Source: Eubacterium sp. (lineage in GTDB: Bacteria > Bacillota > Clostridia > Lachnospirales > Lachnospiraceae). From it: a stretch of DNA of 51,356 bases. Positions 23,161-39,580 of this stretch are shown here, piece by piece (position 1 is the stretch's first letter; every line of letters starts with the position of its first letter). Where the stretch lies: the NCBI GenBank assembly GCA_017420535.1, contig JAFOIV010000037.1, positions 1-51,356 of the forward strand, given 5' to 3'. A program made the translations under genes and the position numbers. The notes under the pieces were generated by a model, which was given only the letters and a program-made list of their open reading frames with translations, was not told where the DNA came from and searched no databases.

Positions 23161-24147
23161 ATGTTTGGTTTCGGACAATTAATCGAAAAACTTAAGAAGG
23201 ATCCGAAGAAGATCGTATTAACAGAAGGTACAGATTCAAGAATTCTTGAGGCAGCATCAAGACTGCTGGCAAGTAATTTCCTTGAACCAGTTCTTATTGG
23301 TAATGAGGCAGAGGTTTACGAGGCTGCAGAAAACTGCGGCTTTAATATAAGGGGAGCAAAGATCATTGATCCTTTAAACTTTCCACAGATAGAGGAAATG
23401 ATCGATCTCTATTGCGAACTTAGAAAGAAAAAAGGCGTTACAAGAGAAGAGGCAAGAGAAGTACTTAAAACAAATAATTATTTCGGTACAATGCTTGTTA
23501 AGATGGGATATGCAGATGCACTTCTTGGAGGGGCAACATATTCTACAGCTGATACAGTAAGACCTGCACTTCAGCTTATTAAGACAAGACCAGGAAACAC
23601 AATTGTTTCATCCTGCTTTATCCTGGTAAGACCTGGTGCAACAGGCGAGAATGAAGTTCTTGCAATGGGTGATTGCGGTCTTAATATTGATCCATCAGAA
23701 GATGAATTAGTTGAGATAGCAGAAGAGACAATCAAGTGCGCTAAGGCATTTGGTGTTGATCCTAAGGTTGCATTCCTTAGCTATTCAACAAATGGCTCTG
23801 GTAAGGGACCAACAGTTGATAAGATGAGAAATGCTGCAAAGCGTACAGCAGCTATCCATCCTGATATTCCAATTGATGGTGAGATGCAGTTCGACGCAGC
23901 TGTTTCACCAAAGGTTGCAGCAAAGAAATATCCTGACTCAAATGTAGCAGGACATGCAAATACATTTATCTTCCCTGATATCAATGCAGGTAACATCGGT
24001 TACAAGATTGCACAGAGAATGGGAAATTTTGAAGCATTTGGACCAATACTTCTTGGACTTAATGCACCGGTTAATGATCTTTCAAGAGGATGTACAGCTT
24101 CTGAGGTATATTCTATGGCGATCATTACAGCAGCTCTTTCAAACTAA
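23161..24147 (+). CDS. pta: Phosphate acetyltransferase
   Basis: Cytoplasmic enzyme converting acetyl-CoA and phosphate to acetyl phosphate, the first step of acetate formation with ATP gain. The 328-residue protein has the full short Pta fold: ILTEGTDSRILEA-like N-terminus, DALLGGATYSTADTVRPALQ, FLSYSTNGSGKGP, DGEMQFDAAVSP and PDINAGNIGYKIAQRMG. Butyryl transferases are related, but the GGATYSTADTVRPALQ stretch fits Pta. No ackA is adjacent. AGGAGAAAGG precedes the ATG. It is monocistronic with its own terminator. Confidence 0.94.
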   Translation: MFGFGQLIEKLKKDPKKIVLTEGTDSRILEAASRLLASNFLEPVLIGNEAEVYEAAENCGFNIRGAKIIDPLNFPQIEEMIDLYCELRKKKGVTREEAREVLKTNNYFGTMLVKMGYADALLGGATYSTADTVRPALQLIKTRPGNTIVSSCFILVRPGATGENEVLAMGDCGLNIDPSEDELVEIAEETIKCAKAFGVDPKVAFLSYSTNGSGKGPTVDKMRNAAKRTAAIHPDIPIDGEMQFDAAVSPKVAAKKYPDSNVAGHANTFIFPDINAGNIGYKIAQRMGNFEAFGPILLGLNAPVNDLSRGCTASEVYSMAIITAALSN

Positions 24148-24161
24148 AATAAAGAGAATAG

Positions 24162-24194
24162 TTACCCTCCTTAGTTATTAGGAGGGTAATTTTA
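24162..24194 (+). terminator. Intrinsic terminator after pta
   Basis: TTACCCTCCT (24162-24171) pairs perfectly with 24180-24189, followed by TTTTAT. Only about 50 bases separate it from the next gene, so the Pel-like operon either has a weak promoter here or uses readthrough. Confidence 0.88.
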
Positions 24195-24243
24195 TATAAG
24201 TAGTAAGTTGGTTTTAGTCCTAGATGGGAGAGGGACGAAAATT

Positions 24244-26409
24244 ATGAATATACTATTTACAGGAAATATTGCGAGGGTATCGTCACAGTTCTTTGATACA
24301 GTGGCAGGTTTAGACAAAAAAGAAAATCTTTTGATTCTTTATAATGAAGAATTAGATAATCGAGAAAAACAAAATAATAAAATAAAAGAAAATTTAGACA
24401 GGATAAGAAGCCTGTCTTTTGTTCGTGTGTTTGATTCCGAAAAAGGCAAGAATTTAGAAACGTTATTTAAATCCTATTCATTTGGAATGATCGTTTATTT
24501 ATCTAAGGCCTTGGATGGGGCAAAACGTTTTTATGATGAACTTGAGGATCTGGAGGAAACGCTTCATTTAGCAAAAAAATACAATGTGCCTCTTTTCACT
24601 CAGGTGGTAACAAATGACATTTACCGTGAAGTAAAGGAAGCGGATATAAGGTTCAGAAACAGAAGAATGCTCCTTATGACAGGAGAAAGAATGGGTTATA
24701 TCAGTGCATCTACGGATAATATCAAAGTGGTAACCCTAAGAGTTCCAAGACTTTACTCAGATATAGATAATGCCTGGGAACTTAGCTCCTGGGTGGATGA
24801 AGCAATATTAAATAATAAGATAGTTTTTTCAGGTGGAAGACTTGAAGATACAGATTTTTTAAATGATCAGGACTTGGGAGAACTGATAGGGCGTATTGCG
24901 GATCTTCCTCCTAAAACTGATTATACGGAGATGGATCTTTCTGGAGGCAATATATGTAATCTTGAGATCATATATGAGAATTTTCAGAAGGTGCAGCCGG
25001 ATGTAGATGTATTTTATAAAAATGATGTCATCATACAGCCTGTTATCAAAACTTCGGAAGTGGCGAGAATAGAGTATGGATGGTATCCAAAACATAATCT
25101 ATGGAAAGAATTACCGGAAATATATGAAAACCGGGTTGAAGATATAAAGAAAAATAATATTAAAAAAGACAGATTAGAAAAGCTTCGTAAATTTGGCGAA
25201 GCCACCCGTGTGGGATTTGAGATCCTTTCCCTTGCTTTTATTGCGGAATGGCTCAATCGACGGGTTAGTGGAAATGCCATTCTGGGATTTATAGATTTCA
25301 GACTGGTAGCGGTTACTATTATCGGGTCCATGAATGGACTTATGCCGGGTCTTTTATCGGCGTCTCTTGCTAGCATTGGTTATCTCATAATGAGCCATAA
25401 GACCCTTTCTTGGCAGATCCTTTTACTTAATGTAATGAACTGGCTGCCTTTCGTATCATATTTTCTTCTTGGTGCAGTATCAGGATATGGAAAAGATAAG
25501 CATGAAGATGAAAAGAGAGAGGCAAGACAGGAAAGAAGAGTATTAGAAAAAAAATACGAATTCCTAAATAAGACATATGAAGATGTTTTAAAAAGTGCTG
25601 AACAGTATAACAGTCAGATCATTGGATATACAGACAGTTATGGAAAAATATTTAGTGCTATTCAGCAGCTGGATTCCATGAAACCTGAAGAAGTTTATTT
25701 TGAGGGAATTCAGGTACTTGAAAAATTATTAGATAATAATTCCATTGCTATCTATAACGTTTATGAAGGCAATAGTTTTGCAAGACTTGTAGTCTGTTCA
25801 AAACAGGAAAATGGCAGACTTAGTAAATCCTTTGATCTAAGAGCTTTTCCTGAGATGACAGATAAAATATTAAAGGGAGAATCATTTATAAACAGTAAAT
25901 GTCTTCCGGATTATCCAGCCTACAGCTGTCCTATCATGGAAGGAGAAAAACTCCGGGCTATGGTTCAGATAATTCATTCTAAAGACAGCCAGATGAATAA
26001 TGAATTTCATAATAAGTTATTTATAATTTCCAGGCTGATATCTGCTTCTGTTGCAAGAGCAGTATCAGAACAGGAAAGAGAGGACCGCTTTATTGAAGGA
26101 ACTCATGTGCTTAAGAAGGAAAACTTTAGTGAAACATTAGAAATCTACAAGCAGATGAGCTTAAAGAATTTTATGGATTATACTTTGATCCGGCTTATTC
26201 CTGTGAAACCAGATGTGGACATTTTTGATCCAATGAACATCAGGGCGGTGGAAAAAGGACTTCAGGGAGTAATAAGAAATAATGACATTTTAGGAATTGG
26301 TTCTGATGATGCTATCTGGCTGCTTTTATTACAGACTGGAAAAGCAGGGGCTGAAGTTGTAAAGCGTAGACTTGCGGAAAGAGAATTTGTATTTGAGGAT
26401 GTAAAATGA
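24244..26409 (+). CDS. pelD: PelD-like c-di-GMP receptor with N-terminal SDR-like domain
   Basis: Membrane regulator of a Pel-type polysaccharide synthase, 721 residues. N-terminal SDR/epimerase-like region (about 1-275, opening MNILFTGNIARVSSQ, with LRVPRLYSD and NAWELSSWVD), membrane segments (about 320-415), a coiled stretch, a GAF-like domain (about 470-610) and a degenerate GGDEF domain. In the latter the active-site GGDEF is replaced by SDDAI (687-691), while the c-di-GMP I-site RxxD is kept as Arg678-Asn-Asn-Asp681 at the canonical distance. P. aeruginosa PelD is likewise an inactive GGDEF protein that binds c-di-GMP. ATG 24244 follows GGGAGAGGG; an upstream TTG (24208) is less likely. 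First gene of the operon. Confidence 0.82.
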   Translation: MNILFTGNIARVSSQFFDTVAGLDKKENLLILYNEELDNREKQNNKIKENLDRIRSLSFVRVFDSEKGKNLETLFKSYSFGMIVYLSKALDGAKRFYDELEDLEETLHLAKKYNVPLFTQVVTNDIYREVKEADIRFRNRRMLLMTGERMGYISASTDNIKVVTLRVPRLYSDIDNAWELSSWVDEAILNNKIVFSGGRLEDTDFLNDQDLGELIGRIADLPPKTDYTEMDLSGGNICNLEIIYENFQKVQPDVDVFYKNDVIIQPVIKTSEVARIEYGWYPKHNLWKELPEIYENRVEDIKKNNIKKDRLEKLRKFGEATRVGFEILSLAFIAEWLNRRVSGNAILGFIDFRLVAVTIIGSMNGLMPGLLSASLASIGYLIMSHKTLSWQILLLNVMNWLPFVSYFLLGAVSGYGKDKHEDEKREARQERRVLEKKYEFLNKTYEDVLKSAEQYNSQIIGYTDSYGKIFSAIQQLDSMKPEEVYFEGIQVLEKLLDNNSIAIYNVYEGNSFARLVVCSKQENGRLSKSFDLRAFPEMTDKILKGESFINSKCLPDYPAYSCPIMEGEKLRAMVQIIHSKDSQMNNEFHNKLFIISRLISASVARAVSEQEREDRFIEGTHVLKKENFSETLEIYKQMSLKNFMDYTLIRLIPVKPDVDIFDPMNIRAVEKGLQGVIRNNDILGIGSDDAIWLLLLQTGKAGAEVVKRRLAEREFVFEDVK

Positions 26410-27419
26410 TCTTATTCATTTTGGGTCACATGGTTATATGCATAATTGTGGCTGTTCTGCTTAAACTTGATATTGTAAAAACCAGGGAACATCTGATGCC
26501 TTTTGTTATTCTTGTGCCTTATGTGGGAGCTTTGCTCTTGCTTGTTGAGCAGTGGCTTCAGAAAAGAAAGATTTATTCCACCAGGGAAACGGGTTATGAG
26601 AAGCTTGAGGTGGATGATATCAGGTTTAAAAAGATCGTTCTGCCTGTAAGTGAGGAGAATTCTGATGTTATCCCTTTGGAAGAGGCTATGGAAATGAATG
26701 GGTCAGAAACCAGAAGAAGCCTCATTATGGATATCTTAAGGGGAAAGCCGGAGGATTATGTATCTGTCCTTGAAAGTGCCAGCCTTTCAAGTGATACAGA
26801 ATTATCTCATTATGCTACTACATCTATGATCGCCATCCAGACTAATTATGAGTCAAAATTAGGGGAACTGGAAGTGAGGATGAAGGAGATAAGAGGATTA
26901 GATGATATAGCTCCTGCAAAAGAAGTGGATATTGACGAATTTGAAAAGTCCGTAAATGAAAAAGAAAATACAGTTGAATTAGTTACTAAAAATGTGGATA
27001 TGCCAAGTAAGGGCTATATCAAGCTGCTGGATGAATATATTACGATAATTGATAAATACATGGCCAGTGGACTTATTTCCGGGGCTATTTATGAAATCTA
27101 TCAGGAGAAATTTGATGATGCTCTTGTAGAGATGCTGGGATATATCAAAGATAATAAGAGATACTGGCTTATGTTTGTAACTAACAGGATAGAGGCAGGA
27201 AGGCTTAAGAGTATGGATAAGCTGCTGGAACTTATTAGAAGCAGCTGGCCTGATGACGAGAAATGCTATATGGCCTATATGGCTTATGCTCATAAGACTT
27301 CTAATGATGAACTTGCAAGAGAGATAATTGAAACAGTTGAGGAAAAGGATATCTATCTCTCTAAGGCCGGAAAGGCCTGGTATAATTTCTGGAAGGGTGA
27401 ATATGAAAATCCATTTTAA
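26406..27419 (+). CDS. pelE: PelE-like membrane protein
   Basis: Protein of 337 residues with two N-terminal membrane segments (about 1-50) and a soluble helical region containing IPLEEAMEMNG...TRRSLIMDILRG and SSDTELSHYATTSMIAIQ, the pattern seen next to PelD in Pel clusters. The second half resembles TPR-type helical repeats (DKYMASGLISGAIYEIYQEK, MLGYIKDNKRYW). In Pel systems PelE supports assembly of the PelD-PelF-PelG complex; its exact role is not known. It overlaps pelD by four bases (ATGA) and the next gene by 17. Identification rests mainly on architecture and position. Confidence 0.75.
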   Translation: MILFILGHMVICIIVAVLLKLDIVKTREHLMPFVILVPYVGALLLLVEQWLQKRKIYSTRETGYEKLEVDDIRFKKIVLPVSEENSDVIPLEEAMEMNGSETRRSLIMDILRGKPEDYVSVLESASLSSDTELSHYATTSMIAIQTNYESKLGELEVRMKEIRGLDDIAPAKEVDIDEFEKSVNEKENTVELVTKNVDMPSKGYIKLLDEYITIIDKYMASGLISGAIYEIYQEKFDDALVEMLGYIKDNKRYWLMFVTNRIEAGRLKSMDKLLELIRSSWPDDEKCYMAYMAYAHKTSNDELAREIIETVEEKDIYLSKAGKAWYNFWKGEYENPF

Positions 27420-29262
27420 GAAAGAGAATGACGAAAATAATACAGGCTGGAACAGGGTTGTTGTCCCTATTGTGGCAATATTTATATTTACATTCCTTGT
27501 GATCCTTCAGAGAAGAGGAGTTGTATTGGATGATAACAGAGACGATCTGCCAGGGGATTATTCATTTACGGCCCAGGTAAGCACCACTGCGGAATGCCTG
27601 CTTATAGTTGATAAAGAGGATGTTAATACAGCGGAGATAACTCCTGAAATGGAGATCGTGCTGCAGCAGATGAAGATTACCTATGATAAGAAGGATGTAG
27701 CTGAAGTGGACTGGGCAACAGACCTCTTTAATTATAGAAATGTAGTTATATCCTTTAGTGATTGGGACAAGATGGAAGATGGTGCCGAGATAATTTCTCG
27801 ATGGATCCTTACCGGTGGACATCTTATGTGTGATACTACCCCTTATGTAGGGACTGTATTTAAAGCACTTTTCCCAAGACTTGGTATAGAGAGCTGCTCC
27901 GGATATACAAAGATCAAGGGGATTTCTCTTCTTGATGAGAGGATGATCGGCTCATATGTTAAGAAAGGCTTTAAATTCTCCCTTGATGGAGAAGAAGGTG
28001 GACTGGATATCTCTTTAGGGATACAGCTTTCTAAGGAATGTGATGAGGTGGTAGCTTCGGAGGATGGAAGTGTACCTTTGATCTGGGGCCATAGGGATGG
28101 AAGCGGTAAGGTTGTGATAATGAATTATACAATGACAGATAAATTCCAGAGAGGATTTTACTGTCTTGCCTACAGTATGCTGGATGATGTCTGCATATAT
28201 CCGGTGATAAATGCATCTTCTTACTATATTGATGACTTTCCATCACCGGTACCAAGTGGCGATTCCAGTTATATTATGAGGGATTACGGAGTTGATATTG
28301 CAACATTTTATTCCAATTACTGGCTTCCTCAGATCATCAAATGGGAAAATGAGTATGGCATTGTCCACACAGGTTTTATCATTGAAGATTATAACGATAA
28401 TGTAAATGCACCATTTCAAAGAAATAATGCTACAGCCCGTTTCTCTATGTTTGGGAATATGCTCTTAAATAACGGAGGCGAATTAGGGCTTCATGGATAT
28501 AATCATCAGCCTTTATGTATAAAGGGAATCGATGATGATATGCAGTTTGGCACATATAAATTATGGCCGGATTCCAAGTCTATAGTTGATGCCATTACGG
28601 AATTAAAGGAATTCTCGGAACAGTTATTTCCAAATGAGAAATTCAGGGTTTATGTTCCTCCTTCAAATATAATGTCTGAGAGCGGTAAGAAAGCTCTTCT
28701 TAATGCGGATAAAGATATTTCTATAATTTCAAGTATCTATCTTCCGGATGCAGACGTAAACAGCTGTACCCAGGAGTTTGGGATTGATATTGAAAATAAT
28801 GTAATAGAGACTCCTAGAATAGTTTCAGGATGTGACATGGATGAATACATGTATTATACAGCTTTTTCAGAGCTGAATTTCCATTATGTTCAGTCACATT
28901 TCCTGCATCCGGATGATGTTCTGGATCCGGATCGTGGTGCTGAGGTAGGCTGGGCCAAGAACGTAGAGTGGTTTAATGAATATCTGGAATTTCTTAAGGT
29001 ATCTGTTCCGGATATAAGACAGTGTACCGGTTCAGAGATGGGAGATGCCACTCTTAAATATACAAAACTTTCAGTTGAAAGAATTTATAAAGATAATTGT
29101 TTAGAGGTAAATCTGGGTGGATTTGCCGGCGAGGCATCATTTTTGCTGAGACTTACTGATAAGGAAATAGTAAATGTTACAGGAGGAACTGCCCATAAGC
29201 AGGCAGAAGGATGTTATCTGATCAATGCAACCAGTGATCATTTGAAGATCGAATATAAGTAG
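27403..29262 (+). CDS. DUF2194 protein, PelA-like membrane-anchored polysaccharide deacetylase candidate
   Basis: Protein of 619 residues with one N-terminal membrane anchor (VVVPIVAIFIFTFLVIL) and a large extracytoplasmic part. An N-terminal region carries ECLLIVDKED and VVISFSDWD. A CE4-like deacetylase region follows, with Asp277-Asp278 in YYIDDFPSP, zinc-site-like His364 and His368 in HGYNHQP, and VPPSN. A C-terminal beta-rich module ends the protein. PelA deacetylates Pel in Gram-negatives; this protein probably plays that part but shows no glycoside hydrolase domain. ATG 27403 is chosen for GGAAGGGTG upstream; the frame extends to 27328 inside pelE. Confidence 0.78.
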   Translation: MKIHFKKENDENNTGWNRVVVPIVAIFIFTFLVILQRRGVVLDDNRDDLPGDYSFTAQVSTTAECLLIVDKEDVNTAEITPEMEIVLQQMKITYDKKDVAEVDWATDLFNYRNVVISFSDWDKMEDGAEIISRWILTGGHLMCDTTPYVGTVFKALFPRLGIESCSGYTKIKGISLLDERMIGSYVKKGFKFSLDGEEGGLDISLGIQLSKECDEVVASEDGSVPLIWGHRDGSGKVVIMNYTMTDKFQRGFYCLAYSMLDDVCIYPVINASSYYIDDFPSPVPSGDSSYIMRDYGVDIATFYSNYWLPQIIKWENEYGIVHTGFIIEDYNDNVNAPFQRNNATARFSMFGNMLLNNGGELGLHGYNHQPLCIKGIDDDMQFGTYKLWPDSKSIVDAITELKEFSEQLFPNEKFRVYVPPSNIMSESGKKALLNADKDISIISSIYLPDADVNSCTQEFGIDIENNVIETPRIVSGCDMDEYMYYTAFSELNFHYVQSHFLHPDDVLDPDRGAEVGWAKNVEWFNEYLEFLKVSVPDIRQCTGSEMGDATLKYTKLSVERIYKDNCLEVNLGGFAGEASFLLRLTDKEIVNVTGGTAHKQAEGCYLINATSDHLKIEYK

Positions 29263-29275
29263 GAGATGAATTAGC

Positions 29276-30679
29276 ATGAGAGTCTGTATGATACTTGAAG
29301 GCTGTTACCCATACGTGTTTGGGGGCGTTTCGAGCTGGACACATCATTATATTGAGGCTATGCCAGATACAGAATTTTCTCTCTGGACCATCGGTGCAAA
29401 CGAGGGACAGAAGGGGAAGTTTAAATTCACCCTGCCTGAAAATGTTGTGGAGACAAGGGAGCTCTTCCTTGATACAGCATTAAATATAAAACTTGATAAA
29501 AAACAAAGGAAACATCCGGCTCTTTCTGATAGTGAATTAGAAGAACTTAGTAATCTTTTTACAGGAGAAAAGGTAAAATGGGAAGTGCTTTTTAATCTCT
29601 TTAATGTTAAGAAAGCAAATCCTATGTCGATCCTTATGAGTGATGAGTTCTTCAGTGTTATAATAAAAGAATGTAAGGAGAAATACCCGTATATATCATT
29701 TTCCAGTTTCTTCTTCAATGTAAGATCTATGCTTTTGCCGGAACTTTATCTTCTTACCAGTGATATTCCTGAGGCGGATATATATCATTCTGCATCCACA
29801 GGATATGCAGGAATCTTAGGGGCTTTGGCCAGCTGGAAAACAGGAAAGCCATTTATTGTAACAGAGCACGGTATTTATACAAGAGAAAGAGAAGAGGAGC
29901 TTCTTTCTGCTAAATGGGTGCCTTCATATTTAAGACAGCAGTGGATAGATCTTTTCTATCAGTTTTCTTCCTGTGCCTATGATCATGCGGCTAAGGTAAC
30001 GTGTCTCTTTAAGAATGCAATGAAGATCCAGCAGGATATCGGCTGCCCTAAGGATAAACAGCTGGTAACTCCAAATGGTATTAATTTTGAGAGATTTAAA
30101 GATATTCCTGTTAAAGAGGACAATGGTTTTGTAGATATTGGAGCAGTTGTTAGAATTGCAAAGATTAAAGATATTAAGACTATGATCTATGCTTTTGCGG
30201 AAGTAAAGAACAGAGTCAGCAATGCAAGGCTCTTTATATTAGGAGATGTGGATGATCCTGAATATAATGAGGAATGCAAGGGACTTATCAAACAGTTGGG
30301 AGTTAAAGATATAATCTTTACGGGAGTTGTAAATGTCCTTGAATATATGCCGAAGTTTGATTTTACAATATTAACAAGTATATCCGAGGGACAGCCTCTT
30401 TCTGTGCTTGAATCATTTGCAGCGGGACGTCCTGCAGTAACTACTGATGTAGGATGCTGCAGAGAACTTATCGATGGGGAAGACGGCTTTGGACCTGCAG
30501 GAATTGTAGTTCCGCCAATGCATAAAGACCAGCTGGCGGATGCCATGGTTTATATGTGCGTTGACAAGGAAATGAGACTTAAGATGGGTGTGGCTGGAAG
30601 AAAGAGAGCAGGCGCCGTTTACACACAGAAGATGAGCATAGATAAATTCCGTGAGCTGTATAAGGAGGTGAATTCCTGA
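29276..30679 (+). CDS. pelF: PelF-like GT4 glycosyltransferase
   Basis: Cytoplasmic glycosyltransferase of 467 residues that in known Pel systems polymerises the chain, probably from UDP-activated amino sugars. The N-terminus MRVCMILEGCYPYVFGGVSSWTHH split at EGCYPYVFGGVSSW is diagnostic of PelF. GT4 features follow: ADIYHSASTGYAGILGALA, FIVTEHGIYTRER, VTPNGINFERF, DIGAVVRIAKIKDIKTMI and the nucleotide-sugar motif SEGQPLSVLESFAAGRP. The stop overlaps the pelG start (TGATGG). This is the most confidently recognised member of the cluster. Confidence 0.94.
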   Translation: MRVCMILEGCYPYVFGGVSSWTHHYIEAMPDTEFSLWTIGANEGQKGKFKFTLPENVVETRELFLDTALNIKLDKKQRKHPALSDSELEELSNLFTGEKVKWEVLFNLFNVKKANPMSILMSDEFFSVIIKECKEKYPYISFSSFFFNVRSMLLPELYLLTSDIPEADIYHSASTGYAGILGALASWKTGKPFIVTEHGIYTREREEELLSAKWVPSYLRQQWIDLFYQFSSCAYDHAAKVTCLFKNAMKIQQDIGCPKDKQLVTPNGINFERFKDIPVKEDNGFVDIGAVVRIAKIKDIKTMIYAFAEVKNRVSNARLFILGDVDDPEYNEECKGLIKQLGVKDIIFTGVVNVLEYMPKFDFTILTSISEGQPLSVLESFAAGRPAVTTDVGCCRELIDGEDGFGPAGIVVPPMHKDQLADAMVYMCVDKEMRLKMGVAGRKRAGAVYTQKMSIDKFRELYKEVNS

Positions 30680-32169
30680 TGGCTGGAATAGGTTTTGAAC
30701 TTAAGAAAGCATTTAATAAAAAAGGGATAATCGCACTTCTTAAAGCATATGGATATTCGGGACTGGTATGTACCGGGCCTATGATACTGGGAATAGTACT
30801 TCTTCTTGGCATAAGGATGCTGGGAATTGCGGCCCATGCAACAAAAGCAGAATTGGGTCTTCTTAATGCTATGGTAACATATACTCTGCTATTTTCCCTT
30901 GTTATGGTAAATATACTTGCTATGGTAACTACCAGATATATAGCAGATTGCATTTATATGAAGAAGGAAGAGGATATTATGCCTTCATTTTATGGCAGTA
31001 TATCCTGCATACTTTTACTGGGGTGCCCTATATGGGGGATATTCCTTCATTTTTCAGGAGTCAGCCTAAGTGAAAGATATTGCTGTTATATATTTTTTGG
31101 AGAACTGGTGATCGTATGGACTGAGATAAATTATCTTACAGCCATTAAGAATTACCGAGAGATAATGAAGGCTTTTCTTGTGGCAGTTACGGCTTCTCTT
31201 GTTGTGGGATATATCTTTGGAGTTAAGCTTCATATCCTGCCTACTACCATGGCTCTTCTGGCTTCCATGTGTATAGGATATGGCATTATGGGACTTTGGT
31301 ATTATGTCCTTCTTACCAGATATTTTCCAAGAGGAAGATGCAGTGCCATGAAATTCTTAAAATGGCTTTCGGCATATCCGGAACTGGGATGCCTTGGAAT
31401 CTGCATGTCTATTGGACTTTATGGACATATAGTACTGATGTGGTCTTCTCCTATCAATAACTGTGTGAAAGGGCTGTTTTTTGAAGCGCCTCAGTATGAT
31501 GTGCCGGCACTTCTCAGCTTCCTTTCGATACTTATTACAACTATAAATTTTGTTACCAGTGTTGAGGTTGAATTCTATCCGAAATACAGGAATTTCTTCG
31601 GATTACTTAATTCTGAAATGACATATTCAGATATTGAACAGGCTCGTATTGAGATGGAACAGACCCTTACCCGTGAGCTGTCTTATACATTTTTAAAGCA
31701 GTTCTTTTCAACGCTGATCTTTATCATCCTGGGAACATTTTTGATCCCAAAGATCCCTTTGGGCTTTAATGAAGATATGCTGGGGATCTACAATGTGCTT
31801 TGCTGCGCATATGCCTTCTATGCCATAGGAAATGCAACAATGCTTATTCAGCTTTATTTTGCAGATAATACAGGAGCTCTTATATCGGGAGCGGTATTTA
31901 TGATATTTTCCTTTGGTGGTACATTTGCAACTATATTCTTAGATATAAAGTGGTACGGCTTTGGATTCTTGCTGGGATCATTTCTCTTTGCAGTTGTTTC
32001 ACTGCTGCAGTTAAAGAAATATCTGTCAAAGATCTTAGAAAATGTATTAAGCCGCCAGCCTATTAAAAATGAGGAAGTTGATGGTATTATGAGCCGTTTT
32101 GCTGATAAATGCGAAAAGGTTTATAGAGATTTATATAGAAAAGACATTCTTAGAGAAGAGGAAGAATGA
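30679..32169 (+). CDS. pelG: PelG-like Wzx/MOP-type membrane transporter
   Basis: Polytopic membrane protein of 496 residues with about twelve hydrophobic segments. It starts MAGIGFELKKAFNKKGI, the characteristic PelG opening, and has PMILGIVLLLGIRMLG, TRYIADCIYMKKEEDIMPSFYG and FVTSVEVEFYPKYRNF, all typical. PelG is thought to move the growing polymer across the membrane. It shares one base with pelF. The next gene begins one base after its stop. Confidence 0.93.
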   Translation: MAGIGFELKKAFNKKGIIALLKAYGYSGLVCTGPMILGIVLLLGIRMLGIAAHATKAELGLLNAMVTYTLLFSLVMVNILAMVTTRYIADCIYMKKEEDIMPSFYGSISCILLLGCPIWGIFLHFSGVSLSERYCCYIFFGELVIVWTEINYLTAIKNYREIMKAFLVAVTASLVVGYIFGVKLHILPTTMALLASMCIGYGIMGLWYYVLLTRYFPRGRCSAMKFLKWLSAYPELGCLGICMSIGLYGHIVLMWSSPINNCVKGLFFEAPQYDVPALLSFLSILITTINFVTSVEVEFYPKYRNFFGLLNSEMTYSDIEQARIEMEQTLTRELSYTFLKQFFSTLIFIILGTFLIPKIPLGFNEDMLGIYNVLCCAYAFYAIGNATMLIQLYFADNTGALISGAVFMIFSFGGTFATIFLDIKWYGFGFLLGSFLFAVVSLLQLKKYLSKILENVLSRQPIKNEEVDGIMSRFADKCEKVYRDLYRKDILREEEE

Positions 32170-32170
32170 T

Positions 32171-33967
32171 ATGAGAAGAAATAGTAAAGTTAAAAGGTTT
32201 ACAGCCAGGCTATTATCTTTATCCATGATCTTTTTAACCTGGGGCTGTGCTGGGATTAAAGTTCCTGACAGGTACAAAGAGCAAAAAGAAGAGGATAAGA
32301 CTGACAGGGCTGTGGAGAAAGCTACTGCAACTGAGCCGGTATTAAAGGACAATATGGAACTTTATGGTGATGATGATGACGATGTGGTGGTTATGTATCT
32401 TACTGTGTCAAAGGGAAATTCTTCAGATAGTACAGACCATACATGGAAAGAGGTTAATACTTACTCAACGGATTACTATGCAGAACAGGGAATCGATAGA
32501 TATAAAGTAAATGGAGTCCTTCAGGTGGGAGATGAAACAGGACCAATGCCAGGAGAACTGGGATATGGAAGGACTACACCAAATTGTACTGTGTCAGTCA
32601 GAGGACAGACTTCATCTAAGGATCCGCAGAAGGGTTATAAGATAAAGATCAAAGATAATCAGGGTACCTGGGATGGTCAGTCTGTGCTTAATCTTAATAA
32701 GCATGAGATGGAAGGCTTAAGATTTAGAAATAAACTTATGTATAAGCTGCAGGAGGGACTTCCTGATATGATTTCTCTTAGGACCAGGTTTGTACATCTT
32801 TACGTTAAAGACCTTACTAGTGAGAATCCTGATACGGCCTTTGTGGATTATGGACTTTATACCCATGTAGAGCAGGCTAATAAGAAAATGCTCAAAGCTC
32901 ATGGACTTGATTCTCAGGGTTATCTATATAAAGAAAACCAGATGTTTGAGTTCTATGATTATGAAGATATAAGGCTTGCCACAGATCCTTTATATGATGA
33001 AGGAAAATTTGGTTATTACCTTGAAAGTAAAGGAAGTAATGACCATTCAAAACTTAAAGAGATGCTTAAGGATGTTAACAGCAATTCTATGGATGGAGAC
33101 ACCCTTTTAGATAAGTGGTTTGACAGGAATAATCTATCCATGTGGATGGCTTTTAATATAATCACAGGAAATATAGATACTCAAAGTAGAAATACCCTGC
33201 TTTATAGTCCATCCAATATAAATAAGTGGTACTTTATAGATTGGGACTGCGATGCAGGCCTTAGAAGATATGAATGGGCATTGAATAAGCATGATATGTC
33301 CTTATATTCTAAGGAGGCATTTGGATGGGAGTATGGAATAAGCAATTACTGGTCAAATGTATTATTCCAGAAGATACTTAAATCCGAAGAGTTTAGAAAA
33401 CTGCTGGATAGTAAGGTGGAATACCTTTATAAGAATTTTCATGGAGGAAAGGTACAGAGACTGGCAGAATACTATGCAGGTATTGTAAAACCTTACTGCT
33501 TTGGAAATGCAGATAAATTATATGAGCCTCTTACGGAAGCTGAATATGATGATATAATCTCAAAGATTGACGATGAGCTGGAATATAATTATTCACTTTA
33601 TAAGGAGTCTCTTAATAACCCAATGCCTTTCTATATTGGAAAGCCGGAAGTAGTAGACGGAAAAACGGTATTTGAGTGGGACGCATCCTATCATTTTGGT
33701 GGAAGCGAGATATCCTATGAGGTTGAAGTGGCTGATAATTTTGATTTTAAGAATCCTATAATCAGCCAGCAGAAATTGTTCCTTGGTCAGGTAATATATG
33801 ATAAGAAACTTGAACCAGGTCAGTATTTTATAAAAGTTAAGGCTGTGGATGCAGAGGGTAATAAATGCACTGCCTTTGATGTTTATTACGGTGAAGAAGA
33901 AAAGATTTTTGGATGCGTCTGCTTTTATGTAGGAGAAGATGGCACCATCAGGCTGGAGGGTGAATAA
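32171..33967 (+). CDS. CotH-family kinase lipoprotein
   Basis: Secreted lipoprotein of 598 residues: signal with lipobox LTWGC, short charged linker, then a CotH kinase-like domain (about 60-480). Recognisable are VRGQTSSKDPQKGYKIKI, LNKHEMEGLRFRNKLMYKL, VEQANKKMLKAHGL, a GNIDTQSRNTLLY segment and WYFIDWDCDAGLRRYE, the region supplying the ATP-site Asp in this family. An FN3-like C-terminal domain (FEWDASYHFGGSEISYEVEV) follows. CotH proteins phosphorylate surface or spore-coat proteins; the target here is unknown. The frame opens at 32099, but ATG 32171, one base after pelG, gives the signal peptide. It overlaps the VTC gene by one base. Confidence 0.86.
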   Translation: MRRNSKVKRFTARLLSLSMIFLTWGCAGIKVPDRYKEQKEEDKTDRAVEKATATEPVLKDNMELYGDDDDDVVVMYLTVSKGNSSDSTDHTWKEVNTYSTDYYAEQGIDRYKVNGVLQVGDETGPMPGELGYGRTTPNCTVSVRGQTSSKDPQKGYKIKIKDNQGTWDGQSVLNLNKHEMEGLRFRNKLMYKLQEGLPDMISLRTRFVHLYVKDLTSENPDTAFVDYGLYTHVEQANKKMLKAHGLDSQGYLYKENQMFEFYDYEDIRLATDPLYDEGKFGYYLESKGSNDHSKLKEMLKDVNSNSMDGDTLLDKWFDRNNLSMWMAFNIITGNIDTQSRNTLLYSPSNINKWYFIDWDCDAGLRRYEWALNKHDMSLYSKEAFGWEYGISNYWSNVLFQKILKSEEFRKLLDSKVEYLYKNFHGGKVQRLAEYYAGIVKPYCFGNADKLYEPLTEAEYDDIISKIDDELEYNYSLYKESLNNPMPFYIGKPEVVDGKTVFEWDASYHFGGSEISYEVEVADNFDFKNPIISQQKLFLGQVIYDKKLEPGQYFIKVKAVDAEGNKCTAFDVYYGEEEKIFGCVCFYVGEDGTIRLEGE

Positions 33968-34689
33968 TGGCTGAAGAGATCGTTAGAAAATTCCGGCATG
34001 AACTTAAATATATGATTTCTGAATCAGAGGCTTTAGTATTAAAACAACGTTTTAAAAGCATAATGTCTCTGGATAAGAATGCAGGTGAAACTGGATATCT
34101 TATAAGAAGCCTTTACTTCGATGATGAGAAAGAGTCGGCCATTATGGATAAAATGGCTGGAACTGCCGCCAGAGCTAAATTCAGGATAAGGATATATAAT
34201 TATAAAGATGGATTTATAATGCTTGAAAGAAAGGCAAAGCAGGGACAGTACATCCAGAAGACTTCTGTATCTCTCACTAAAGAAGAATATTATAAGATCT
34301 ATGATAAGGATTACAGATTTCTTCTTGATAGAAAAGAGGCCTTGTGTAAGGATTTTTATTTCGAGCTTGTTTCCAATAATTTAAAGCCTGTAGTAATTGT
34401 AGATTACGACAGAGTACCATTTGTCTATCAATATGGTGATGTGAGAGTTACTTTTGATGAAAATATCAGAAGTGCGGGAGCTGTAAGAGAGATATTTAGT
34501 GATAAACTGGATACATATAATGTAATGCCGCCATCAACTCTTATACTGGAAGTGAAATTCACAGAATTTCTGCCTCAGATAATTAGAGATATGTTGGATA
34601 TAAGAAGTTCAACTTATGTATCTGCTTCAAAATATGTAATGTGTCTTGAGAAGAGACTGGAAAATACCATGAGAAAGAAAGCTGATTAG
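33967..34689 (+). CDS. VTC-domain polyphosphate polymerase-like protein
   Basis: Protein of 240 residues made only of a VTC domain, the tunnel-fold catalytic part of yeast Vtc4, which makes polyphosphate from ATP. The basic and acidic tunnel strands are all present: FRHELKYMI, LIRSLYFDD, AKFRIRIYNY, MLERKAKQGQYIQKTSV, VIVDYDRVPFVY, VRVTFDENIR, LILEVKF and SASKY. In bacteria this family is often encoded next to CotH and DUF4956 genes, as here. Whether it makes polyphosphate or another triphosphate-derived product has not been shown from this sequence. It is translationally coupled to the CotH gene (TAATGG). Confidence 0.87.
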   Translation: MAEEIVRKFRHELKYMISESEALVLKQRFKSIMSLDKNAGETGYLIRSLYFDDEKESAIMDKMAGTAARAKFRIRIYNYKDGFIMLERKAKQGQYIQKTSVSLTKEEYYKIYDKDYRFLLDRKEALCKDFYFELVSNNLKPVVIVDYDRVPFVYQYGDVRVTFDENIRSAGAVREIFSDKLDTYNVMPPSTLILEVKFTEFLPQIIRDMLDIRSSTYVSASKYVMCLEKRLENTMRKKAD

Positions 34690-34702
34690 GGAGGAAAAAG
34701 AT

Positions 34703-35371
34703 ATGTCTATTGAGGATATCATAAAAGATTCGGATGCATTTCAACAGGCCATAACACCTGGAACAGCGCTGACTATTGCGTTGGACCTGCTGTTTGCACT
34801 TGTAATGGGAATTTTAATATATTTTGTTTATAAAAAATATTTCTCAGGGGTAGTATATAGCAGAAATTATGCCATAACCCTTATTGGAATGAGTGTGCTT
34901 ACCTGTATGGTAACTCTTGCTATCAGTACCAATATTGTTATCTCTCTTGGTATGGTAGGCGCGCTTTCTATTGTACGTTTCAGAACAGCCATAAAAGAAC
35001 CGCTTGATCTTATGTATCTTTTCTGGGCAATTACATGTGGAATTACTGCAGGAGCAAGTATGTATATCCTTGCCATTGCAGCCTTTGTCATTATGTTTAT
35101 AGTGATAGTGATCTTTGCCCGCAGAAATGCTACAGGAAATACATATGTAATGATAGTTCATTATAATGGGGCTGATACAGAGGGATGTATTGTAAGAGAA
35201 ATCTCAGATCTTAAGTATAATATCAGATCAAAGGTGGAAAGAAGTGAAGATACAGAGCTTACCATCCAGCTTCAGATCAGAAAGAATAACCTTGGTTTTA
35301 CTGAAAAAATAAAGGCTTTAGAAGAAGTAAAGGACGTAGCTGTTATTAACTTTGATGGAGAATATCATTAA
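34703..35371 (+). CDS. DUF4956 membrane protein
   Basis: Protein of 222 residues with four membrane segments (about 20-150) and a cytoplasmic C-terminal domain. The conserved core is NIVISLGMVGALSIVRFRTAIKEP split as SLGMVGALSIVRFRTAIK followed by PLDLMYLFWAI, the hallmark of DUF4956. The C-terminal part (YVMIVHYNG...VKDVAVINFDG) looks like a small ferredoxin-like sensor fold. The function is unknown; the family repeatedly accompanies VTC-domain proteins. GGGAGG precedes the ATG, 13 bases after the VTC gene. Last gene of the operon. Confidence 0.86.
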   Translation: MSIEDIIKDSDAFQQAITPGTALTIALDLLFALVMGILIYFVYKKYFSGVVYSRNYAITLIGMSVLTCMVTLAISTNIVISLGMVGALSIVRFRTAIKEPLDLMYLFWAITCGITAGASMYILAIAAFVIMFIVIVIFARRNATGNTYVMIVHYNGADTEGCIVREISDLKYNIRSKVERSEDTELTIQLQIRKNNLGFTEKIKALEEVKDVAVINFDGEYH

Positions 35372-35458
35372 GATTTTCTGATGATAAGTTTATGTTTAGA
35401 ATTATAAAAAATTTATAATAATATAAATTTTTAGTCATTTAAATTTTTGAGATATATG

Positions 35459-35520
35459 ACCGCGCCAAAAGAGGTTCAGAGAGTTTTCCCGGGAATGGAT
35501 AAACCCCTTTGAGGCGCGGT
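35459..35520 (+). other. Structured hairpin in the malQ1 upstream region
   Basis: ACCGCGCC (35459-35466) pairs perfectly with GGCGCGGT (35513-35520), with further AAAG/CTTT pairing inside. The loop holds TTTTCCCGGGAA. No T-run follows, so it is not an ordinary terminator. It is strikingly GC-rich in a very AT-rich stretch (35372-35650) and could be a 3' end of the Pel-like operon or a leader element. Confidence 0.5.
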
Positions 35521-35599
35521 TTACTTATGGTTTAAAAGGGTGAAGGGACTTTTTTTTGAAGGTTTAAAATCATTTAAATTTTTAAGTGAAAATTGGTTT

Positions 35600-35680
35600 T
35601 GTTATACTAAATGCCATAAAATTGATATATACGCTTATTTAAAAATTTGTTAGAGTTGACTTAAATCGAAAACGTTTCCG
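35600..35680 (+). promoter_or_regulatory. malQ1 promoter and LacI-type operator
   Basis: TGTTATACT (35600-35608) is an extended -10 element. CGAAAACGTTTCCG (35667-35680) is one mismatch from the perfect palindrome CGGAAACGTTTCCG, the form bound by LacI/GalR regulators with a central CG. It lies in the leader about 35 bases before the start codon, where a bound repressor would block transcription. MalR (45641-46699) or a CcpA-like protein is the likely binder. Confidence 0.55.
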
Positions 35681-35714
35681 GCTTATGAGCCGGCATTATG
35701 AAAGAGGGGAAAAC

Positions 35715-37277
35715 GTGAAAGAAAGACTTAAACAAAGAGGCGCAGGCATCCTTATGTCAATTACGAGTCTCCCATCTCCATACGGTATTGGAACAATGGG
35801 TAAGGCGGCATATCACTTTGTTGATCAGTTAGCAAAGGCTGGACAGAGTTATTGGCAGGTGCTTCCAATCGGACCAACAAGTTTAGGAGACAGCCCATAT
35901 CAGGCTTGTTCTTCATTTGCAGGAAATCCATATTTCATCGATCTTGATATGCTCATTGAAGATGGATTACTGAAGAAATCAGATCTTAAGGGCTATGATT
36001 TTGGAAATGACGAAGCAAATGTAGATTACGAAAAGATCTGGAATTACAGATTCAAAGTGCTTCGCATTGCTTATGAAAACAGCAAGGATATCCACGATGA
36101 CGCTCAGGATTACTTTGAGAAGAAGAATCGTGAATGGCTTGATGATTATGCACTTTTCATGGCTGTTAAGAATCATTTTGACAATCATGAATGGCTCATG
36201 TGGGATGAAGATATCAGATTCCGTGAAAGAAAGGCTATGATCTCATATAAGAAAGCTCTTTCAGAAGAAATCGGTTTCTGGAAATTCATTCAGTTTGAGT
36301 TCTACAAGCAGTGGGACAGCTTAAAGAAATATGCTAATGAGAAGGGCATCTCTATCATTGGTGATATTCCTATCTACATTGCTTTAGATAGTGTTGATGT
36401 TTGGAAGAATCCAGAACTGTTCCTTTTAGATGAGGACAGAAGACCGGTTCTTGTAGCAGGTGTACCACCAGATGCATTTTCTGATGAAGGTCAGAAGTGG
36501 GGAAATCCTATTTATGACTGGAAGAAGATGGAAGAAGATGATTTCGCTTGGTGGAAGAAGAGAATCGAAGGTTCAGCAAAGCTTTATGACATCATAAGAA
36601 TCGATCACTTCATCGGTGTTGTAAGATACTATGCCATCCCTGTAAATGAAAGTGCTAAACATGGCAAGTTCGAGTGGGGACCTGGAGAAAAGCTTACAAA
36701 GGCCATCGACAGTGCCAAGGGTGAAGCTGAGATCATCGCAGAAGATCTTGGTGTAGTTATTCCTGAAGTTCAGGAACTTATTGAAAAGACAGGATATCCA
36801 GGAATGAAGATCCTTGAGTTTGCTTTTGACCAGAATCCTGATAATGAACACCTTCCACAGAACTATACAAAGAATTTTGTTGTGTATGGTGGAACTCATG
36901 ATAATGACACACTTAAGAGTTATTATAAGTCTATTGATAAACGTTCAAAACAGTATGCTTATAACTACGTAGGGGCTCATACAGAGGATGAACTTCTTGA
37001 TAATGTTCTTCGTCTGGCATATGGAAGCGTAGCGAACACTGTAATCTGGCAGATGCAGGACGTACTTAAACTCGATGGTGATGCAAGAATGAATCTTCCT
37101 TCAACAATCGGTACTAACTGGAAGTGGCGTATGAAGAAGGGCGAATTCACAAATGACATGGTAAAGAAATTGGCTATGCTGTCAAAACTTTATGGCAGAA
37201 AAAGGGAAATACCAGTCAGAAACGCATCAAAGTCTGCAGAAGCTAAAAAGACAACAAAGAAAAAAGAAAAGAAATAA
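35715..37277 (+). CDS. malQ: 4-alpha-glucanotransferase (amylomaltase), copy 1
   Basis: Cytoplasmic GH77 enzyme that transfers glucan units between maltodextrins, feeding glycogen phosphorylase. The 520-residue protein has SITSLPSPYGIGTMG, GPTSLGDSPYQACSSFAGNPYFID, the nucleophile region IIRIDHFIGVVRYY, the acid/base region IIAEDLGVVIPEV and GTHDNDTLKSYY. It ends in a Lys-rich tail (AKKTTKKKEKK). Start: the frame is open from an ATG at 35685, but GTG 35715 sits five bases after GAGGGG and gives the family N-terminus MKERLKQRGAGIL. A second, divergent copy lies at 43938. It is upstream of glgP. Confidence 0.95.
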   Translation: MKERLKQRGAGILMSITSLPSPYGIGTMGKAAYHFVDQLAKAGQSYWQVLPIGPTSLGDSPYQACSSFAGNPYFIDLDMLIEDGLLKKSDLKGYDFGNDEANVDYEKIWNYRFKVLRIAYENSKDIHDDAQDYFEKKNREWLDDYALFMAVKNHFDNHEWLMWDEDIRFRERKAMISYKKALSEEIGFWKFIQFEFYKQWDSLKKYANEKGISIIGDIPIYIALDSVDVWKNPELFLLDEDRRPVLVAGVPPDAFSDEGQKWGNPIYDWKKMEEDDFAWWKKRIEGSAKLYDIIRIDHFIGVVRYYAIPVNESAKHGKFEWGPGEKLTKAIDSAKGEAEIIAEDLGVVIPEVQELIEKTGYPGMKILEFAFDQNPDNEHLPQNYTKNFVVYGGTHDNDTLKSYYKSIDKRSKQYAYNYVGAHTEDELLDNVLRLAYGSVANTVIWQMQDVLKLDGDARMNLPSTIGTNWKWRMKKGEFTNDMVKKLAMLSKLYGRKREIPVRNASKSAEAKKTTKKKEKK

Positions 37278-37324
37278 GCAGCTGATTTAGCGCAAGAAAT
37301 ATTATATAAAAGGGAGTTTGGATA

Positions 37325-39580
37325 ATGTTAGAGAATTACTTAAAGAAACATTTCAACAAGACAATCGCTGAATGTACTGACGAAGAAATCTATGCAGCTC
37401 TTCTTCTTCTTACAAAAGAGAAGGCAGAGAAGCGTGTTAGTACAAATGGTAAGAAGAAGCTTTATTACATCTCAGCTGAGTTCCTTATTGGTAAGCTTCT
37501 TAGTAATAACCTTATTAATCTTGGTATCTATGATGCAATAGCAGATGAGCTTAGTGCTAACGGTAAGTCAATCACACTTATTGAAGAAGTTGAGCAGGAG
37601 CCATCACTTGGTAACGGTGGTCTTGGAAGACTTGCAGCTTGTTTCCTTGATTCTATTGCAACTCTTGGACTTAACGGTGACGGTATCGGACTTAACTACC
37701 ACCTTGGACTTTTCAAGCAGGTATTTGAGAAGAATCTTCAGAAAGAAACAATCAACCCATGGATCGATGATCACAGCTGGCTCACAAAGAGAAAAGAGAA
37801 TTACACAGTTGAATTCGGTGATTTCAAGGTAAAGTCAACTCTTTATGATATTGCTGTAACAGGTTATGAAAACAGAACAAATGAACTTCATCTTTTCGAT
37901 ATTGATTCAGTAGATGAGAGCATTGTAGAGAAGAATTCAATCTCTTTCGATAAGGAAGCTATCAAGAAGAACCTTACACTTTTCCTCTATCCAGATGATA
38001 GTGATGAAGCAGGAAATCTTCTTCGTGTATATCAGCAGTATTTCATGGTATCAAATGCTGCACAGTTTATCATTGATGAAGCTAAGGGCAGAGGTTCTAA
38101 CTTACATGACCTTGCAGATTATGTAGCTATTCAGATCAATGATACACATCCATCAATGGTAATTCCTGAACTTATCAGACTCCTTGACAAAGAAGGAATC
38201 AAGTTTGAAGAGGCTGTTGAGATCGTAACAAATACATGTGCATATACTAACCATACAATCCTTGCAGAAGCTCTTGAGAAGTGGCCTATCAAGTTCATTG
38301 AAAAGGTTGCTCCAGCTATTGTTCCTATCATTAAGAAGCTCGATGCTATCGTTGTTAAGAAGTTCGACGATCCATCAGTAGCTATCATTGATGAAGACGA
38401 GAGAGTACACATGGCTCATATGGATATCCATTTTGGTCACAGCGTAAATGGTGTTGCTTACCTTCATACAGAAATCTTAAAGAACACAGAATTAAACAAG
38501 TTCTATAAGTTATATCCAGAGAAGTTCAACAACAAGACAAATGGTATCACATTCCGTAGATGGCTCCTTCACTGTGATCATGACCTTACAAAGTTCATCG
38601 AAGCACATATCGGAACAGGATTTAAGAATGATGCTACAGAACTTGAAGAACTCCTTAACTATATCGATGATGAGAAGACACTTTATGATCTCCTTTCAGT
38701 AAAGGCTGAAAACAAGAAGATCTTAAAGAACTTCCTTAAGAGAACAGATGGTATGGATTTAAATGAAAATTCTATCTTCGACGTTCAGGTTAAGAGACTT
38801 CATGAGTATAAGAGACAGCAGCTTAACTGCCTCTATGCTATTCATAAATATTTAGAGATCAAGGCAGGTAAGAAGCCAACAACTCCTATCACAATGCTTT
38901 TCGGAGCTAAAGCTGCACCAGCTTACACAATCGCTAAGGATATCATTCACCTTATCCTCTGCCTTCAGGAACTTACAGCAAATGATCCAGATGTAGCTCC
39001 ATACTTCAGAGTTGTTATGGTTGAGAACTACAACGTATCAAAGGCTGAGAAGGTTATTCCAGCAGCTGATATCTCAGAGCAGATCTCACTTGCTTCTAAG
39101 GAAGCTTCAGGAACAGGTAACATGAAGTTCATGTTAAATGGTGCTATCACAGTTGGTACAATGGATGGTGCTAACGTAGAGATCGCACAGTTTGTTGGCG
39201 AAGACAATATCTACATCTTCGGTGAAGATTCAGATACAGTTATCAAGAGATATGCAGATGCTTCTTATGTATCAAAGGATTACTACAAGAAGAATCCTGT
39301 GATCAAGGAAGCTGTTGATTTCATCGTAGGAAAAGAAATGATGAAGATCGGTAATAAGGAGAACTTAGAGAGATTATACAACGAACTCCTTAACAAAGAC
39401 TGGTTCATGACATTCCCTGATGTTGATGATTATTTCGCAACAAAGGAAAAGGCTTACAAGGATTATGAGGATCGTCTCGGATGGGCTCGTAAGATGCTTG
39501 TAAATATTGCAAAGGCTGGTTTCTTCTCATCAGATAGAACTATTGAAGAATACAACAGAGATATCTGGAAGTTATCATAA
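37325..39580 (+). CDS. glgP: Glycogen/maltodextrin phosphorylase
   Basis: GT35 enzyme releasing glucose 1-phosphate from alpha-1,4-glucans. The 751-residue protein has [64 protein letters not shown] and [15 protein letters not shown]-type stretches, and the pyridoxal phosphate site [20 protein letters not shown] followed by MDGANVE. Shorter than the roughly 800-residue classical enzymes but complete. It is 47 bases after malQ1, so the two likely form one operon that converts maltodextrin to glucose 1-phosphate. Strong codon bias suggests high expression. Confidence 0.96.

Follow-up and report, generated by a model that had tools for sequence, protein, structure and literature searches.

The window analysed here is the whole 51,356-nt stretch of contig JAFOIV010000037.1 from Eubacterium sp. 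(Lachnospiraceae; assembly GCA_017420535.1, 2.67 Mb in 134 contigs). Eight genes on its + strand, spanning positions 24244 to 35371, encode PelD, PelE, PelADA (DUF2194), PelF, PelG, a CotH-family protein, a VTC-domain protein and a DUF4956 protein. We interpret this locus, with a probability of about 0.65, as a Gram-positive Pel operon of the extended type that carries a portable CotH-VTC-DUF4956 phosphate module. The extended architecture is already published (PMC7112168; PMC12345266) and the operon of the window is a further example, which adds to the published set a member with an intact cyclic di-GMP (c-di-GMP) motif. The interpretation is carried by the gene families and their key residues, by a conserved gene order, by the pairing of VTC with DUF4956, by fusions of PelG to CotH and by triads found without pel genes. 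The eight-gene set and its order had been proposed in the original prediction, and the open reading frames (ORFs), DNA and Pfam matches agree with it; the tight spacings noted at the same time were also recovered, with pelG and cotH 1 base apart and cotH and the VTC gene overlapping by 1 base (Table 1).

Concerning the Pel core, PelF and PelG adjoin each other and both exceed the cut-offs of their models (NF038011 and PF16933). Residues 161-587 of PelADA match PDB 9zau (E 2.5e-55), which is probably the PelADA enzyme of Bacillus cereus because the offset in residue numbering is constant. In the B. cereus Pel de-N-acetylase, catalysis depends on D262/D263, H350, H354 and H488 (PMC13254593); in the alignment with 9zau, the Asp-His-His metal site and the catalytic motifs (D262/D263, H350, H354 and the SHFxHPDD motif of H488) are all kept. 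Neither PelD nor PelE matched a Pfam or NCBIfam model at E 0.01, and their homologues occupy the same positions in the loci of relatives. The N-terminus of PelD resembles short-chain dehydrogenases/reductases (SDR) of the epimerase type, by profile over the whole alignment and by fold; SDR structures dominated the fold search, which is uninformative on the GAF/GGDEF part. The YxxxK-like motif present in the Paenibacillus rows of the alignment is missing from the row of the window. In the C-terminal region the likeness to GGDEF domains is weak by profile (E 0.012), and the Arg and Asp of the RxxD I-site are invariant in 15 of 15 alignment rows, a count that leaves out L177 (Abiotrophia) and L221 (Gemmiger), both devoid of this region. 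Clostridial PelD proteins are described with inactive-looking SDR domains, and streptococcal PelD has lost the GGDEF domain (PMC7112168). The genome of the window contains 19 GGDEF stretches, 18 of them above the cut-off. The Pel families and the RxxD motif thus support the earlier proposal of a Pel-type operon with a PelD of the putative c-di-GMP-receptor type.

PelG was matched in 53 of 299 genomes of the family, 52 of them above the cut-off. One sampled congeneric genome (G160) has no PelG, and VTC and DUF4956 are present in it. The 54 family pel loci comprise 53 fetched loci and the window, with two loci each from G107 and G163 and with the weak match of G177 left out. CotH, VTC and DUF4956 lie downstream of PelG on the same strand in 21 of these 54 loci (window included), which argues that the adjacency of the accessory genes is more than chance; in one other locus, L095, a fused CotH stands at the contig end. 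Many of the 32 triad-free loci have an extra glycosyltransferase (GT) gene after PelG and group separately on the PelG tree (FastTree, midpoint-rooted, support values left aside). A second sample comprises 80 named loci, the best 80 of at least 588 loci with DUF4956, in which close relatives are over-represented. PelG occurs in 24 of the named loci. CotH, VTC and DUF4956 accompany it in 22 of these (three with CotH only as a fusion); L167 is without CotH, and in L175 the three genes sit upstream of pelD instead. The smallest distance from PelG to CotH is at most 66 bp in 39 of 40 loci from several families, neighbours being defined by a simple longest-ORF rule. The exception is L076 (1,680 bp), a triad locus placed within the other group of the PelG tree, in which a DUF4832 gene separates PelG from CotH, an arrangement that looks like a transfer of the module.

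PelG and CotH are encoded by one ORF of 1035-1091 amino acids (aa) in seven loci: L094, L095 and L098 from the family genomes, L178 on the chromosome of Claveliimonas bilis, and L197, L198 and L212 from Paenibacillus. Because the fused ORFs from L094, L095 and L098 formed part of the training set of our own CotH and PelG profiles, the seven fusions were rechecked with Pfam, and both domains exceed their cut-offs in each. No separate CotH was found within the three Paenibacillus loci. On the PelG tree the fusions form two separate groups, one from Paenibacillus and one of Lachnospiraceae type, with unfused relatives between them; L098 and L178 nearly coincide and may be one species. As to the original prediction, the conserved adjacency was found in many other genomes, which excludes a single-genome oddity, and the short PelG-CotH distances and the seven fused ORFs support the view that the accessory genes belong with Pel. 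The fusions also offer a handle on why an exported CotH kinase accompanies Pel, the kinase and the exporter being able to form one protein.

The further idea that CotH, VTC and DUF4956 constitute one indivisible set was not borne out, since VTC and DUF4956 form a near-invariant pair and CotH is optional. From 40 VTC loci outside pel loci, drawn evenly from 111 places picked by eye among the VTC matches listed, with contig ends and pel loci excluded, 39 have DUF4956 directly downstream (exception L132), and VTC is adjacent in 78 of the 80 named DUF4956 loci (exceptions L179 and L242). Phylum-wide, VTC is present in 20 of 149 genomes and DUF4956 in exactly those 20, the copy numbers of the two being equal (26 matches each). 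Twenty-four of these 26 pairs are less than 700 bp apart (20 in the order VTC-DUF4956 and four reversed), one is 2 kb apart and one is split across two contigs; the Fisher values for this co-occurrence overstate independence, the genomes being related. VTC is found in 224 and DUF4956 in 219 of the 299 family genomes; compared by eye, 218 have both, six VTC only, one DUF4956 only and 74 neither, and five of the six VTC-only genomes have weak E-values (6e-8 to 4e-5). The copy numbers of the two families differ by about one in a number of family genomes. Both match the same three of 14 control genomes. The genome of the window holds a second pair of a more distant type (L165:9528-11001, contig C113), and no CotH was found beside it in a 20-kb stretch. 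Eighteen named pairs have no CotH, several of them with little sequence on one side. From this pattern of occurrence VTC and DUF4956 probably behave as one two-protein machine, and the nearly constant partnership with VTC provides a handle on the purpose of DUF4956.

The VTC alignment displays 24 invariant columns across 26 sequences, among them putative tunnel residues of the VTC4 type. The profile favours the catalytic subunit VTC4 (E 7.1e-20) over VTC2 (2e-10) and VTC3 (2.1e-8 and weaker). Unlike in the eukaryotic VTC complex, the catalytic domain and the membrane part are here two proteins, the membrane role being presumably that of DUF4956. The structural model of DUF4956 (mean predicted local distance difference test score, pLDDT, of 83.7) combines five long helices with an alpha/beta domain at the C-terminus. 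In the fold search this domain resembles ACT-type domains, including the C-domain of MgtC (2lqj), the matches being assigned to the ACT-like part through their aligned length and descriptions. The membrane part has no match to any solved structure. DUF4956 as a known fold was rejected, because no PDB sequence matched and the fold matches concern the ACT-like part. A weak MgtC/SapB match in NCBIfam lies below its cut-off. The closest named relatives of DUF4956, among the best 80 loci, are mostly from Lachnospiraceae. A role of VTC as substitute for an absent PPK1 was rejected, since PPK1 is present here and in 244 of the 299 family genomes.

VTC, DUF4956 and CotH occur together without a pel operon in 36 of the 80 named loci, with CotH last in 32 and first in four. 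The triad as a Pel-specific feature was therefore rejected, and these loci argue for a portable module attached to Pel. The CotH-last triads often adjoin a two-component system: for 27 of the 32, the two genes upstream encode response regulators in 15 of 54 proteins and a histidine-kinase ATPase domain in 15 of 54. As all 32 CotH-last loci are without a pel operon, the exact order CotH-VTC-DUF4956 may be Pel-linked. The four CotH-first loci outside pel are L170 and L181, where the CotH start is at or near the contig end, and L192 and L196, which have a PelF-like GT. In the latter two (L192:7501-19824 and L196:7583-20295) the triad precedes the PelF-like GT4 (DUF3492) and several large proteins that match no Pfam family, and L192 additionally carries HD and GH114 genes; no PelG was found in either, and both are divergent Pel-like loci. 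In the sample of 40 non-pel pairs, CotH is the gene after the pair in 5/40 and the gene before it in 2/40. Cthe_2159 carbohydrate-binding proteins frequently come directly after these more distant pairs (L115-L154; 18/40). In L127, L151 and L153, VTC-DUF4956-CotH precede a protein of about 700 aa, a protein of 366-387 aa (with HEAT repeats where scanned, in L127) and a chitin-synthase-like GT2, a set suggestive of a GT2 polysaccharide locus that has so far not been described.

In CotH, the residues N358, D360, N365, W382 and D383 (numbered from the TTG at 32099 that opens the ORF; an ATG lies at 32171) are each conserved in at least 90% of the sequences from 47 pel loci, 42 non-pel loci and 7 fusions. 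The spacing of 23 residues between D360 and D383 is the same as that between D228 and D251 of Bacillus subtilis CotH, the substitution of which inactivates that protein (PMC7821199). The CotH of the window keeps both catalytic Asp residues, and its kinase activity is predicted. A loose lipobox-like pattern is present in 37 of the 47 pel sequences, in 7/7 fused sequences and in 15 of the 42 non-pel sequences.

Among known systems, cotH, poly-phosphate polymerase and DUF4956 (and DUF4832) genes contiguous with pelDEADAFG were described by Whitfield 2020 (PMC7112168). The window has in common with those clusters the core genes, three contiguous downstream accessory genes and the degenerate SDR N-terminus of PelD. 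The DUF4832 gene of that accessory group was not found in a scan of 10 neighbouring genes of the window; it is not constant in the group, since another gene replaces it in bifidobacteria (PMC7112168). The pelDEADAFG operon of B. cereus (PMC7112168, PMC13254593) resembles the window in the catalytic motifs of PelADA and the RxxD of PelD and, unlike it, is described in those texts without cotH-VTC-DUF4956. In Streptococcus intermedius, where CotH, VTC and DUF4956 homologues also accompany the Pel core and an ACT domain is also noted, the homologues (pel cluster with SIR_1591-1594) were deleted in an mBio 2025 study (PMC12345266). PelD of that species has no GGDEF domain, whereas PelD of the window keeps the RxxD. 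Pel level and aggregation both changed on deletion of the CotH homologue and of the DUF4956 homologue, the DUF4956-homologue mutant having more Pel yet less aggregation, and the Pel of this species may be mostly neutral GalNAc (PMC12345266). The same article, in its available text, did not find the syntenic arrangement of the triad outside the Pel locus in its analyses, whereas among the loci compared here the triad does exist outside pel, in a different gene order. NELoc-2 of Clostridium perfringens (PMC2879425, PMC11677781) has the order VTC, CotH, HEAT-repeat protein and glycosyltransferase seen in L127, L151 and L153, and is reported in those texts without pel genes; judging from their size and place, its 222- and 226-aa proteins would be DUF4956. 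Among the matches listed from the open-licence PMC literature, we found no earlier description of the near-obligate VTC-DUF4956 pair, of PelG-CotH fusions (judged by title or abstract) or of stand-alone triads.

In the mechanism that we propose, PelD would sense c-di-GMP via its I-site and, with PelE, turn on the PelF synthase; PelG would export a GalNAc-type polymer, and PelADA would deacetylate it outside. VTC, as a soluble enzyme of the polyphosphate-polymerase type, and DUF4956, as its membrane partner, would form one membrane machine, and CotH, an exported kinase at the outer side of PelG, would phosphorylate a surface target and thereby tune the output of polymer or the cohesion of the matrix. 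The c-di-GMP-gated Pel part of this scheme, including its control in this organism and the chemical nature of the product, is drawn from what is known of the Pel family. The site and target of CotH and the activities of kinase and polymerase are likewise putative, the placement of CotH at PelG and the VTC-DUF4956 machine being suggested by the fusions and the pairing. Export of polyphosphate and phosphorylation at the surface are equally hypothetical. A rather improbable extension holds that VTC-DUF4956 is a bacterial VTC complex, with polyphosphate made from ATP and threaded out through DUF4956 to feed extracellular CotH with a phosphate donor or building block, the polymer or proteins leaving PelG being phosphorylated. 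Exported polyphosphate would suit CotH as a donor because an extracellular kinase has no ATP there. If this is true, Pel loci would have taken up a free-standing surface-phosphorylation system, and if the pair exports polyphosphate, PPK would not be the only means by which bacteria obtain polyphosphate outside the cell.

Several observations weigh against our interpretation. All three accessory genes are missing from 32 of the 54 family pel loci, 28 of which have at least 4 kb of sequence past PelG, so Pel export is independent of the module, and L167 has the VTC-DUF4956 pair but no CotH. In the family genomes the pair greatly outnumbers PelG (VTC 224/299, PelG 53/299), and the genome of the window already encodes PPK1. 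No change is reported for the VTC-homologue mutant of S. intermedius in the available text of PMC12345266. Finally, the lipobox-like Cys of CotH is not universal, and the site of the window itself (TWGC) is atypical.

Alternatively, VTC-DUF4956 could make and export polyphosphate as a polyanion that binds partly de-acetylated, cationic Pel in the matrix, CotH being only an export regulator. The VTC4-type residues of VTC, its obligate-looking membrane partner and the presence of PPK1, next to which a further polymerase would point to use at a different site, are in line with this possibility. We nevertheless consider it unlikely, given how common the pair is outside pel loci and how often it stands beside Cthe_2159 proteins, and given the S. 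intermedius results, with no reported VTC phenotype and a Pel that may be mostly neutral. It is also conceivable that the module serves regulation only: DUF4956 would sense a metabolite and adjust the supply of phosphate or ATP, VTC would handle triphosphate with no requirement for long polyphosphate, and CotH would phosphorylate a protein regulator. The ACT-like C-terminus of DUF4956 with the MgtC C-domain among its matches, the weak MgtC/SapB match, the opposite changes of Pel and aggregation in the DUF4956-homologue mutant (PMC12345266) and the two-component genes adjoining many triads agree with such a role; it is quite improbable in view of the VTC profile, closest to the catalytic polyphosphate subunit, and of a likeness to MgtC that concerns the C-terminal domain, the membrane part being without a solved match. 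That the three genes are accidental neighbours of the pel genes has a negligible probability: the triad and the pel set are each found without the other, but the tight order in 40 loci of several families and the in-frame fusions already contradict it.

Table 1. Genes and predicted hairpins of the pel operon in the window (positions of JAFOIV010000037.1).
Feature	Position	Strand	Assignment and evidence
Hairpin	24160..24191	.	Between pta and pelD; fold of window 24150-24205, z -4.6
pelD	24244..26409	+	Degenerate SDR (epimerase-like) N-terminus, membrane helices, C-terminal GAF/GGDEF-like region with RxxD (RNND)
pelE-like	26406..27419	+	Assigned by place and conservation in relatives only; 4-base overlap with pelD
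pelADA/DUF2194	27403..29262	+	Predicted exported polysaccharide de-N-acetylase; PF09960, E 7.8e-155; 17-base overlap with pelE
pelF	29276..30679	+	GT4 polymer synthase; NCBIfam PelF NF038011, E 2.1e-99; Pfam PelF-type GT4 (DUF3492)
pelG	30679..32169	+	Exporter; PF16933, E 3.3e-123; 1-base overlap with pelF
cotH	32171..33967	+	Predicted exported CotH-family kinase; PF08757, E 8.8e-57; 1-base gap from pelG
VTC	33967..34689	+	VTC-domain protein, polyphosphate-polymerase type; PF09359, E 1.5e-40; 1-base overlap with cotH
DUF4956	34703..35371	+	Helical membrane part and C-terminal ACT-like domain; PF16316, E 2e-12; 13-base gap from VTC
Hairpin	35458..35521	+	3' of DUF4956, possible terminator; 35455-35535, z -2.3; 8/200 shuffles fold equally well

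In contrast to the hairpins at both ends of the unit, folding is weak at the pelG/cotH junction (z -1.8) and at the VTC/DUF4956 junction (z +0.4). A simple scan of 23900-35750 detected 14 terminator-like sites against 6.3 expected in shuffles, and all eight sites on the + strand are intragenic. A promoter-like site 5' of cotH (32063-32090) is at chance level, with 34 promoter-like sites in all against 41.4 expected. Riboswitch control was rejected, as no Rfam family reached its gathering score within the window. Elsewhere, a named locus of Eisenbergiella porci (L179:6114-10576) has odd ORFs that join PelADA to PelF and PelG to DUF4956, and no VTC was found in it, perhaps through a deletion or an assembly error. 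Directly 3' of the operon of the window, the region 35685-39580 contains ordinary genes for 4-alpha-glucanotransferase and glycogen phosphorylase.

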